Assembly (NCBI GenBank): GCA_003220495.1
Contig: QHSP01000046.1
Span: forward strand, 1-53,350
Direction of reading: 5' to 3'
Origin: Candidatus Rokuibacteriota bacterium
Lineage (GTDB): Bacteria; Methylomirabilota; Methylomirabilia; Rokubacteriales; CSP1-6
Length of the DNA: 53,350 nt
Under the pieces are notes generated by a model. It was not told the origin of the DNA. It saw only the letters and a list, made by a program, of their open reading frames with translations, and ran no database searches. Shown in pieces: positions 5,890 through 16,598 of the stretch. Numbering within the stretch: the first letter of the stretch is position 1; each line of letters begins with the position of its first letter. The position numbers and the translations under genes were made by a program.

Positions 5890-6659
5890 TGACCGGGCAC
5901 TTCAACGCCTCGGAGCTGCTCGCCGTGATCGCGGCGCGCCAGCTACGCGACGACACGACCGTCTTCGCCGGGGTCGGCGTGCCGCTCCTGGCCGCCGCGC
6001 TCGCGAAGCGCCGCCACGCGCCGCGGCTGACGATGGTCATCGAGGGCGGCATCATCGGGCCTCAGATCGCCCCGGGGCGGCTGCCGGTGTCGACCAACGA
6101 GATGCGCGCCGGCCACCGGGCGACGATGCTGCCGGGCATCACCGACGCGTTTCTCTTCGCTCAGCGCGGCTTCGTGGACGTCGGCTTCATGGGCGGGGCG
6201 CAGATCGATCAGTACGGCAACATCAACACGAGCGTGCTGGGCGCCGACTACTGGCGGCCGAAAGTTCGCCTGCCCGGAACGGGCGGCGCCAACGACATCG
6301 CCTCGCTGTGCCGCGAGGTCATCATCGTCACGGCGCACGAGAAGCGCCGCTTCGTCGAGCGCGTCGACTTCGTCACGAGCCCGTCCTGGCTCCGGGGCGA
6401 CGGGTCGCGCAAGGCCGCGGGGCTTCTCTTCGGGGGCGTCTCCCGTGTCGTCACCACGCTCGGCATCCTCGGCTTCGATCCCGAGAGCAAGCGCATGCGG
6501 ATCGAGGCCACGCACCCGGGTGTCTCGACGGACGCGTTGCGCCAGAACACTGGCTTCCCGTTGCTCGAGGCCCCGCGAATCGAGATCACCGAGCCGCCGT
6601 CGGACGAAGAGCTCGAGATGCTCCGGGCCCTCGATCCGGAGCGGCGCTTCCTGGGCTGA
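5889..6659 (+). CDS. CoA-transferase, beta subunit (GctB/IpdB-like)
   Basis: This is the 256-aa partner of the preceding subunit. The segment VIEGGIIG near residue 50 aligns with the SENG-type loop that carries the catalytic glutamate of class I CoA-transferases, so a Glu is present at the expected place. FVDVGFMGGAQIDQYGNINTS and LPGTGGANDIAS are typical of the beta subunit. The ATG at 5889 is chosen over an in-frame upstream start at 5856, which lies inside the repeat. The gene is followed 3 nt later by the LLM oxidoreductase, so the operon continues. Confidence 0.88.
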   Translation: MTGHFNASELLAVIAARQLRDDTTVFAGVGVPLLAAALAKRRHAPRLTMVIEGGIIGPQIAPGRLPVSTNEMRAGHRATMLPGITDAFLFAQRGFVDVGFMGGAQIDQYGNINTSVLGADYWRPKVRLPGTGGANDIASLCREVIIVTAHEKRRFVERVDFVTSPSWLRGDGSRKAAGLLFGGVSRVVTTLGILGFDPESKRMRIEATHPGVSTDALRQNTGFPLLEAPRIEITEPPSDEELEMLRALDPERRFLG

Positions 6660-14039: not shown

Positions 14040-15016
14040 CCGCGATCTCCGCCGCGCCGCCGAGGACGCGCGCCGCCGGCTACTGGATCGCGTTCGCGAT
14101 GGTCGTCGGGCTGCTGCTGGTCGCGCCGCTGGTGCTCCCGCCATTCTGGCAGCGCTTCGCCACGGAGATCCTGATCTGGGGGCTCCTGGCGATGTCGTCC
14201 GACATCCTCATCGGCTACACCGGCATGGTCTCGTTCGGGCACTCGGCATTCTTCGGTCTCGGCATGTACGGCGCGGCCGCCGCCCTGCTCACGGTCAAGC
14301 CGCCGAGCCTCTCGCTGGCCCTCATCTATGGTCTGGTCGCCGCCGGCGGCGCGGCCGTCTTCGTCGCCTATTTCGCGACGCGCCTGCGGGAAATCTACTT
14401 CGCGATCTCGACCCTCGTCTTCTCGCAGATCTTCTACGTCATCATCTTCACCTGGACCGAGGTCACCGGCGGCGAGAACGGGCTCACCTTCGGCCAGCCG
14501 CGGCTGTCGATCCTGGGCCTCTGGAGCGACCGCTTCACGCCCACGACCTTTCACTGGTTCGTGCTGGCGGTGGTGGTGGTCTCCTACCTGGTGGTCCGGC
14601 GCATCACGCAGTCGCCCTTCGGCATGGTGCTCCAGTCGATTCGCGAGAACGAGCCGCGCACCCGGGCCATCGGCTATCCCGTCGAGCGCTACAAGATCGT
14701 GGCGGTGATGCTGTCCGGACTCTTCGCGGGGCTCGCGGGCGTCCTCTACGCGCTCCAGAACAAGTTCGCCGCGCCCGACTTCGTCTTCTTCGTCGTGTCG
14801 GGCGAGGTGGTGATCTTCAACGTGATGGGGGGCATGGGAACTCTGGTGGGGCCGTTCGCGGGCGCGGCGTTCTTTCTGCTCCTGCGCGAAAGTCTCTCGC
14901 GCCTCCCCTACCTCGCCGAGTACTACCTGATTCCCGTGGGTATCATCTTCATCATCATGATCATCTTCCTGCCGCAAGGGCTTCTCGGCTTCTTACGCCG
15001 TCGCCTCAACGCGTAG
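14036..15016 (+). CDS. livM: Branched-chain amino-acid-type ABC transporter permease LivM
   Basis: This is the second permease, 326 aa, with multiple membrane helices and the LivM signatures LIGYTGMVSFGHSAFFGLGM, LQSIRENEPRTRAIGYPVERYK (the EAA-like coupling region) and VFNVMGGMGTLVGPFAGAAF. The start overlaps the livH stop by 4 nt. It is the last gene of the importer operon; the next gene is convergent, with 40 nt between stops. The operon order K-G-F-H-M, with both ATPases before both permeases, differs from the E. coli order. Confidence 0.93.
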   Translation: MTAISAAPPRTRAAGYWIAFAMVVGLLLVAPLVLPPFWQRFATEILIWGLLAMSSDILIGYTGMVSFGHSAFFGLGMYGAAAALLTVKPPSLSLALIYGLVAAGGAAVFVAYFATRLREIYFAISTLVFSQIFYVIIFTWTEVTGGENGLTFGQPRLSILGLWSDRFTPTTFHWFVLAVVVVSYLVVRRITQSPFGMVLQSIRENEPRTRAIGYPVERYKIVAVMLSGLFAGLAGVLYALQNKFAAPDFVFFVVSGEVVIFNVMGGMGTLVGPFAGAAFFLLLRESLSRLPYLAEYYLIPVGIIFIIMIIFLPQGLLGFLRRRLNA

Positions 15017-15056: not shown

Positions 15057-15776
15057 TCAGGGCTGCGTGAGGGAAAGACGGGCGCGGGCTTCGCGGCAGG
15101 CGGTGACGGCGGCGGCGTAACCGACGAGCAGCGGATGAGGGCTCGCGGCCGTCGAGCGGGCCTGGGGAAGAAACAAGGTCGCGACGAAGAAGGGATGCTC
15201 CGGGAGCTCGACGATCCTGATCTCGCCCTCCGAGCCCACGCCGCTCACCCGGAGGCCGCACGCCTCGAACTGCAGCCGGTAGTCCGGGTTCACTCCGTAG
15301 TTGCAGTAGTAGGGCTCGACGGCCTCGGGCACGCCGTAGAGCCGCGCGGCGCGAGTGCGGGGGACCAGGACGACCCGTTGCTCTTGCCCCACGAGTGAGC
15401 ACGCCAGCGGCGTGATGACGAGTCGCGCCGCGTCGGGGCTCGTCTCAGCGTGGTCGGCGTCTCGGTACCCGAGGACGTTGCGCGCGAACTCGACGATCGC
15501 GTGCTGGAAGCCACCTCAGGTGCCGACCAGCGGGACTCCGCGCTCGCGCGCGTAGCGCACGGCGGCGAGGGCGCCGTCCATGCTGCGGTACGGGCTCGCC
15601 GGCGCGATCCAGACGCCGTCGTACGCGGACAGACGCTCGTCCCAGCCGCCTGCCGCGTCCGTCGGCACCCACGTGAAGCCGAGCCCGACGTGCTCGAGCG
15701 CCGCGTTCGTGAACTCGTGGGTCGGATTCGCCGGGTTGAAATCGCCGACGATGGCGATCTGCGCGCGCTTCCCCAT
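15057..15776 (-). CDS. CTP synthase C-terminal-region-related selenoprotein (Sec at UGA)
   Basis: This is a 239-aa glutamine-amidotransferase-like protein read through an in-frame TGA at 15518-15516 as selenocysteine 87. Before the TGA the frame reads MGKRAQIAIVGDFNP..., WIAPASPYRSMDGA and GVPLVGT. After it the same frame continues GGFQHAIVEFARNVLG..., and both halves match one family, the CTP synthase C-terminal-region-related (seleno)proteins. Sec sits at the nucleophile elbow where amidotransferases have Cys. The distal EHPFFVATLF is kept, but the His-Pro-Glu that completes a class I triad reads Leu-Pro-Gln, so glutamine hydrolysis is doubtful. A candidate SECIS hairpin follows the TGA. 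Conventional gene calling would split or truncate this gene. It is divergent from the PAP2 gene. Confidence 0.88.
15480..15504 (-). promoter_or_regulatory. Candidate bacterial SECIS hairpin
   Basis: Starting 11 nt after the UGA, the mRNA can fold as GC, a mismatch, then CGCGA paired with UCGCG, a U-U mismatch, a C-G pair and the apical loop GUCGA. The first loop base is G, 21 nt after the UGA. This matches the usual bacterial SECIS geometry (apical loop about 16-37 nt downstream, early G in the loop). It was folded by eye only. Confidence 0.6.
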
Positions 15777-15851: not shown

Positions 15852-16598
15852 ATGGAGATCGGGACTTCGCGAAGAATGCTTGACGCGTCTGCCAAGGCTC
15901 TTCGGCTCGCGGTCCGCTGGCTCACGAGCCAGGAGGCCGTCGTGCTCCTGGCCGCGCTCGGCATCGTCCTGTCTCTCCTCGTATTCTCGAAGACGGCCGG
16001 CGAAATGCTGGAGGGCGATCTCCGCGAGTTCGACGACGGCGTGCTGCGCCTCTTGCGTTCCCATGACGACCCGAGGGTTCCGATCGGCCCGGCGTGGCTC
16101 GTCCAGGTCGCCATCGACGTGACCGCGCTCGGCGGCACGGCGGTCCTCGCGATCATTCTGGTGATCGTGGTGGGCTACCTGGCGCTCGAGCGCCGGTACG
16201 ACGCGATCGTGTTGATCGTGGTCGCCACTGCCGGAGGTGGTGTGCTCAGCGAGCTTCTGAAATGGTGGTTCGCCCGCAAGCGGCCGGAGATCGTCCCGCA
16301 TCTGGTCGAGGTCGGCAGCGCCAGCTTCCCGAGCGGGCACTCGATGCTCGCGGTCGTGACCTATCTCACCCTGGGCGCGCTGCTCGCCCGGTTCGTCCCG
16401 CGACGACGAACCCGGACGTACTGCATCGTGGTCTCGTTCCTGCTGGCGCTGCTCATCGGCCTCAGCCGCGTCTATCTCGGCGTCCACTACCCGACCGACG
16501 TCCTCGCCGGCTGGTCCGCGGGTCTCGCGTGGGCGCTGCCGTGCTGGCTGATCGCGCGTTATCTACAATATCGAGGGCGTGTGAAGCCGCCGACCTAG
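15852..16598 (+). CDS. PAP2 superfamily phosphatase
   Basis: This is an integral-membrane phosphatase of about 248 aa. The three-part PAP2 active-site signature is complete: KWWFARKRP, then PSGHS, then SRVYLGVHYPTD. Hydrophobic segments surround these motifs (residues ~30-50, ~90-115, ~120-140 and the C-terminal pair). Such enzymes dephosphorylate undecaprenyl pyrophosphate, phosphatidic acid or PGP. The start at 15852 is chosen; ATG at 15876 is a possible alternative. The end overlaps the convergent LLM gene by 4 nt. Confidence 0.9.
   Translation: MEIGTSRRMLDASAKALRLAVRWLTSQEAVVLLAALGIVLSLLVFSKTAGEMLEGDLREFDDGVLRLLRSHDDPRVPIGPAWLVQVAIDVTALGGTAVLAIILVIVVGYLALERRYDAIVLIVVATAGGGVLSELLKWWFARKRPEIVPHLVEVGSASFPSGHSMLAVVTYLTLGALLARFVPRRRTRTYCIVVSFLLALLIGLSRVYLGVHYPTDVLAGWSAGLAWALPCWLIARYLQYRGRVKPPT

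Follow-up and report, generated by a model that had tools for sequence, protein, structure and literature searches.

A predicted Rokubacterial selenoprotein on the CTP synthase glutaminase fold, with the catalytic triad dismantled

Contig QHSP01000046.1 of a Candidatus Rokuibacteriota bacterium, a soil bacterium of the Rokubacteria, provides a 53,350-nucleotide stretch of DNA (the window) in which a mechanical list of open reading frames splits one region into two pieces, one of 111 aa at 15057-15392 and one left open that ends at 15516. A TGA codon in the same frame separates them. This arrangement raises the question of whether the TGA is a stop or is read as selenocysteine (Sec), and of what a protein spanning it might do. 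The explanation best matching the evidence described below is, very probably, a selenoprotein that is not an ordinary glutaminase.

The initial annotation had joined the two halves of one protein family across this single TGA, placed the gene at 15057-15776, and held that standard callers would report two fragments. Each of these points was borne out, the last by the mechanical list itself. The strand, left unstated there, is the minus strand; a plus-strand reading of the same interval gives a meaningless frame and was discarded. Translated from 15776 down to 15060 with TGA as Sec, the gene encodes 239 residues (MGKRAQIAIVGDF...RGVPLVGT-U-GGFQHAIVEFARNVLG...ARLSLTQP), with RGVPLVGT-U-GGFQHAIVEFA around U87, and the TGA at codon 87 is the sole in-frame interruption. 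The gene and its key codon are as follows:

15057 to 15776, minus strand: complete predicted selenoprotein gene, with the ATG at 15776, 239 codons and the stop TGA at 15057-15059 (from the translation and the family match given below).
15516 to 15518, minus strand: UGA codon 87, predicted Sec, equivalent to the nucleophile Cys379 of E. coli CTP synthase (from the homologue column and the phmmer alignment to 1s1m).

When TGA codons flanked on both sides by coding signal were sought across the entire window, only two strong cases emerged, codon 87 and a TGA at 6657-6659 on the plus strand. The latter scored higher and is an ordinary gene junction, where the next ATG follows two codons on in the same frame.

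The gene stands alone in the window. To one side, a branched-chain amino acid ABC transporter operon, ending at 15016, runs convergently with it; to the other, a PAP2-family phosphatase is encoded divergently at 15876-16598. We draw no functional link to the ABC transporter, acyl-CoA dehydrogenase and PAP2 neighbours, as this arrangement is shared mainly by close relatives and is changed in others. Scanning for promoters and terminators around the gene yielded nothing.

The joined protein belongs to NF004836 (PRK06186), the NCBIfam family 'CTP synthase C-terminal region-related (seleno)protein'. It matches this profile at full length, with residues 6-224 covering profile positions 2-227 of 228, at 297.4 bits against a curated cut-off of 260 (E 4.9e-89). 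A class I glutamine amidotransferase (GATase) match is also found (PF00117, 34.1 bits, cut-off 22.8). The protein is not itself a CTP synthase: the PyrG profile gives 117 bits against a cut-off of 462.75 and aligns only over positions 291-525 of 526, without the N-terminal synthetase domain. The family name, which had been taken as established, is so in the curated record, and the family has already been described in print as containing selenoproteins. Table 3 of deep-Sep (2025) lists a predicted 'glutamine amidotransferase (COG0504, PyrG)' selenoprotein from Desulfosediminicola ganghwensis, together with homologues containing TGA or Cys (PMC12013277), and a 2026 review names the family as NF004836 with the motif GxUxG (PMC13188914). 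The Rokubacterial gene is therefore a further member of a known selenoprotein family. It shares with the published case the curated family, the GxUxG motif and the replacement of a family Cys by Sec, and differs from it in its host, Rokubacteria here and Desulfosediminicola in the published table. A literature search on PRK06186 returned nothing relevant, and no function for the family was found; nor was any discussion of the lost triad, of the invariance of Cys158, of the synonymous signature or of the Sec-to-Cys reversion described below found in the literature searched.

Comparison with relatives bears directly on the identity of position 87. In 59 genomes, comprising the gene's own and those of its relatives, a clear Sec form is present in 14, with TGA at the identical column in every one; the other strong matches are ordinary CTP synthases. 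Altogether, 29 Sec-form loci were found, representing 20 distinct proteins with about 46-91% identity to the Rokubacterial protein. All share the TGA column, and sequence is conserved on either side of it. Twenty Sec and 32 Cys sequences remained for alignment once duplicates had been dropped. At position 87, where the initial annotation had suggested looking for Cys or Sec in homologues, the residue is Sec (TGA) in 20 and Cys in 32 of these 52 distinct sequences and never another residue, and no homologue terminating before the UGA was found. The Sec homologues are nearly all Rokubacterial, and the 32 Cys forms are more distant. A wider scan of contigs added Sec forms that include metagenome-assembled genomes (MAGs) labelled Chloroflexi, Bacillota and ANGP1, as well as Cys forms mainly from Actinomycetota, together with Nitrincola, Rahnella and Thermosporothrix; no relatives were found in viral contigs. 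In the maximum-likelihood tree, three Cys forms from Actinomycetota MAGs (L069-L071) are nested within the main Sec clade (support 97/93). They likely represent a secondary reversion from Sec to Cys, because of this nesting and because they retain the Gln205 typical of Sec forms. One homologue from an Actinomycetes MAG (L100:807-2429) carries a C-terminal fusion to an Rce1-like membrane protease domain (PF02517, 46.8 bits).

The predicted structure places the UGA in a well-known fold. The best structural match to an AlphaFold2 model built from a 47-row alignment (pLDDT 95.6, pTM 0.93) is E. coli CTP synthase, in its glutaminase domain (Z 33.7; 230 residues superposed at rmsd 1.7), and Foldseek agrees; together with PF00117 this identifies the GATase fold. 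In that enzyme, as is well established, Cys379 is the nucleophile, His515 and Glu517 complete the triad, Arg470 binds the glutamine carboxylate, and Gln383 and Glu403 contact glutamine. Mapping by phmmer alignment to 1s1m equates residues 87, 203, 205, 159, 158, 91 and 111 with positions 379, His515, Glu517, Arg470, 469, Gln383 and Glu403, respectively. The positions that matter most for function, counted over the 52 aligned homologues, are these:

15168 to 15170, minus strand: codon 203, Leu at the His515 position, lost (Sec forms 16 L, 3 V, 1 Q; Cys forms 29 Q, 3 V; His in 0/52).
15162 to 15164, minus strand: codon 205, Gln at the Glu517 position, lost (Q in 20/20 Sec forms; E in 28/32 Cys forms).
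15303 to 15305, minus strand: codon 158, invariant Cys (52/52), aligned with E. coli 469 beside the lost Arg470; candidate partner of Sec87.
15501 to 15503, minus strand: codon 92, family-specific His (51/52), five residues past Sec.
15717 to 15719, minus strand: codon 20, invariant His (52/52), at the third position of the first helix (residues 18-29 of the model).

Position 159, the equivalent of Arg470, is Asn or Ser in most of the 52 homologues, and Arg is lost in nearly all. Conversely, Gln91 and Glu111 are kept in nearly all members, S61 (T in two), P62 and Y63 are fixed or nearly so, and C126 is present in 49 of 52. His20, the SPY turn, Cys87, Gln91, His92, C126 and C158 are also kept in homologues from Klebsiella, Methylobacter and a Streptomyces plasmid. 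The Cys-His-Glu triad of a functional class I amidotransferase is thus absent, and its nucleophile position alone survives, as Sec. The initial annotation had set the TGA exactly at the nucleophile elbow of this fold. Structurally this holds, as Sec87 corresponds to Cys379; amidotransferase activity, on the other hand, does not follow from it, as the His, Glu and Arg are lost.

These features separate the protein from its nearest structural relatives. The glutaminase domain of CTP synthase shares the fold, the nucleophile position and the equivalents of Gln383 and Glu403, but has Cys instead of Sec, retains His515, Glu517 and Arg470, and is attached to a synthetase domain. A separate candidate for an ordinary CTP synthase is encoded in the same genome (G000:C131:57203-57916). 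The class I GATase-like hydrolases PuuD and SpuA have the superfamily fold (Z about 24), but they are gamma-glutamyl hydrolases with 17-19% identity, and the Rokubacterial protein lacks, where it would be expected, an equivalent of their catalytic His, the residue altered by H221N in the SpuA entries 7d50/7d53.

The gene product would be a free-standing CTP synthase glutaminase domain, lacking the synthetase domain and carrying Sec on the nucleophile elbow. As judged from the alignment, it most likely does not hydrolyse glutamine, because the equivalents of His515, Glu517 and Arg470 are replaced. Binding of a glutamine-like ligand may persist in the family, since Gln91 and Glu111 are retained in nearly all members. 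With a pKa of about 5, a selenolate is already ionised at neutral pH and can act without a base, in keeping with the total loss of the triad, Glu included, in Sec forms. Sec/Cys87 would form a covalent adduct or a selenenyl-sulphide with a small substrate; the invariant Cys158 could then resolve the selenenyl intermediate, perhaps with His92 or His20 serving as acid/base, a weaker suggestion drawn from conservation. Such chemistry, a thiol/selenol redox reaction or group transfer at a Sec/Cys nucleophile, is the likeliest working model, put forward tentatively and at slightly less than even odds. The fuller proposal, that the glutaminase fold has been reused, with Sec87, Cys158 and His92/His20 replacing the triad for redox or group-transfer work on a small substrate, perhaps one with a soft metalloid or a thio group, is possible but more doubtful.

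The surroundings of the Cys forms offer some hints about function. A LysR-type gene lies near the Cys form in 23 loci, all from Actinomycetota and often directly divergent, although some of the copies grouped in this cluster are other LysR genes located nearby. This linkage suggests a separately regulated activity rather than a CTP synthase subunit. In Klebsiella (L135, L136, L139), genes for DUF523 and DUF488 proteins lie divergently to the Cys form, and a selenoprotein has been reported for the DUF523 family as well (PMC12013277). The Klebsiella records themselves are unusual: CP125156 is a 5.37 Mb sequence labelled as a plasmid, apparently a mislabelled chromosome, and NZ_CP138733 is an 8.2 kb 'plasmid' on which these genes follow in identical order and which may be an assembly artefact. 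On a plasmid of Streptomyces sp. NBC_01708 (L138:4815-8711), the Cys form closes a set of overlapping genes, sharing bases with a small ORF that itself follows iPGM-like and EPSP-synthase-like genes, and the set lies inside an arsenic resistance island with arsR, arsC, arsB, trxA, trxB and pst genes. Pairs of EPSP-synthase and iPGM genes of this kind are part of organo-arsenic biosynthesis, and it is possible that this Cys form participates in such a pathway; support for a role in the arsenic cluster was not found in the literature searched.

The same observations lend themselves to another interpretation, in which the protein is a non-enzymatic regulated switch whose Sec/Cys senses oxidants, electrophiles or metalloids and which binds a ligand without turning it over. 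The lost triad, the LysR regulator near many Cys forms and the single Cys form within an arsenic gene island would all be in keeping with a sensor. Sec, however, is costly and normally kept for catalysis, and several polar residues besides Sec are invariant, which makes a switch rather unlikely.

A working glutaminase or amidotransferase, with Sec used for speed, other residues standing in for the triad and ammonia passed to an unknown partner, is distinctly improbable. Its case draws on the fold of the CTP synthase glutaminase, on the kept glutamine-contact equivalents Gln91 and Glu111, and on the printed label, as both publications call the family a glutamine amidotransferase (PMC12013277, PMC13188914). 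Yet the position of His515 never holds His, that of Glu517 is Gln in all Sec forms and that of Arg470 is mostly Asn or Ser; the protein has no synthetase domain, and a conserved neighbour with an acceptor domain was not found in the neighbourhoods compared.

The preferred reading, a selenoprotein with chemistry other than that of a glutaminase, depends on the UGA being recoded, and the nucleotides downstream of it provide evidence for this. The initial annotation had reported a SECIS-like hairpin after the TGA. It was found within the coding sequence, with an apical loop beginning with G, and it coincides with synonymous constraint confined to Sec forms:

15477 to 15506, minus strand: SECIS-like hairpin, +12-41 nt from the first base of the UGA (RNAalifold consensus).
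15465 to 15506, minus strand: peak of synonymous conservation, codons 91-104, in Sec forms only.

The stem pairs GC.CGCGA with UCGCG.GC, has an inner C-G pair and carries the apical loop GUCGA, which begins about 21 nt past the UGA. In the RNAalifold consensus, its 8 pairs are kept in 16/16 main-clade sequences, with one broken cell. No compensatory changes were seen in the main clade, because the hairpin hardly varies. Among 17 Sec sequences, codon identity for the same amino acid reaches 0.93 in codons 91-104, compared with about 0.60 over the remaining codons, whereas codons 88-104 of 23 actinobacterial Cys sequences are unremarkable (0.61 vs 0.64 elsewhere). Measured against same-amino-acid columns elsewhere in the same genes, the Sec forms show 0.92 where 0.63 is expected (0/20,000 permutations), and a set restricted to eight divergent sequences gives 0.86 vs 0.57 (0/20,000 permutations). 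Synonymous constraint in Sec but not in Cys forms is as expected for a putative SECIS inside the gene. Folding energy is less informative: the local 30-nt hairpin is among the most stable 4-7% of synonymous shuffles in the main clade, a modest effect, and the whole 54-nt region folds no better than dinucleotide or synonymous shuffles (mean z about 0). Stability of the full region, not being significant, was consequently dropped as proof of a SECIS, and the synonymous-conservation test was used in its place, along with the local hairpin. An Rfam scan of the window gave no match. In a divergent Sec clade (L035-L037), this stretch differs in sequence, being of the CAUACUCU/AGAGUAUG type, and still forms a strong hairpin at almost the same position (about +12 to +42), with the loop GUU in two members and GGU in the third. 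As the hairpin registers differ, no covariation between this clade and the main one could be counted; the predicted SECIS of L035-L037 seems to have been rebuilt instead of co-varied.

The host also encodes the apparatus that such recoding uses, as the initial annotation had suggested looking for. The genome (G000, 5.98 Mb, 98.4% complete) contains the following genes, the first three clustered together on contig C152:

C152:34565-34658: tRNA-Sec, 69.8 bits (gathering 47); ARAGORN tRNA-SeC with anticodon tca (UCA).
C152:31858-33210: SelA, 591 bits.
C152:29930-31813: SelB, 357 bits.
C1:77537-78481 (L020): SelD, 337 bits, interrupted in frame by a TGA of its own (motif CAGUASK).

By this in-frame TGA, the SelD of the same genome is itself a selenoprotein. 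SelA scores above its cut-off in 57/59 genomes of the class, and since the machinery is class-wide, its co-occurrence with the gene is uninformative within the class. SelB bound to the hairpin after the UGA would place Sec at codon 87.

It is very improbable that the TGA is a true stop, leaving two fragments or a decaying pseudogene. The two ORFs in the mechanical list would be read in this way at face value, but 20 distinct genes, some no more than about 46% identical, carry the TGA at this codon with the flanking frames intact, Cys fills that column elsewhere, synonymous constraint lies just downstream, and the Sec machinery is complete. Reading of the UGA as another amino acid (such as Trp, by near-cognate readthrough), with selenium unused, can practically be dismissed, since the column holds Cys and never Trp in homologues, tRNA-Sec, SelA, SelB and SelD are encoded, and the gene's own stop is TGA. 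Three marks of a bacterial selenoprotein are present here: a UGA in frame at a column that Cys or Sec occupies in homologues, a hairpin soon after it with G among the first apical-loop bases, and Sec machinery in the genome. On comparative grounds, the selenoprotein interpretation of the gene appears sound, and comparison of the homologues shows the predicted recoding of the UGA to be under selection.

A gene split by standard annotation is hereby confirmed as one, and a recently named selenoprotein family is extended to uncultured Rokubacteria. Membership of this family should not be taken to imply glutamine amidotransferase activity, as the triad is dismantled and the nucleophile either retained or exchanged for selenium; as a statement of function, the amidotransferase label is probably wrong. 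Cys forms occur in culturable Klebsiella, Rahnella and Streptomyces, which makes testing practical, and Sec/Cys87, Cys158, His92 and His20 are the residues to probe for a new activity on a well-known fold.
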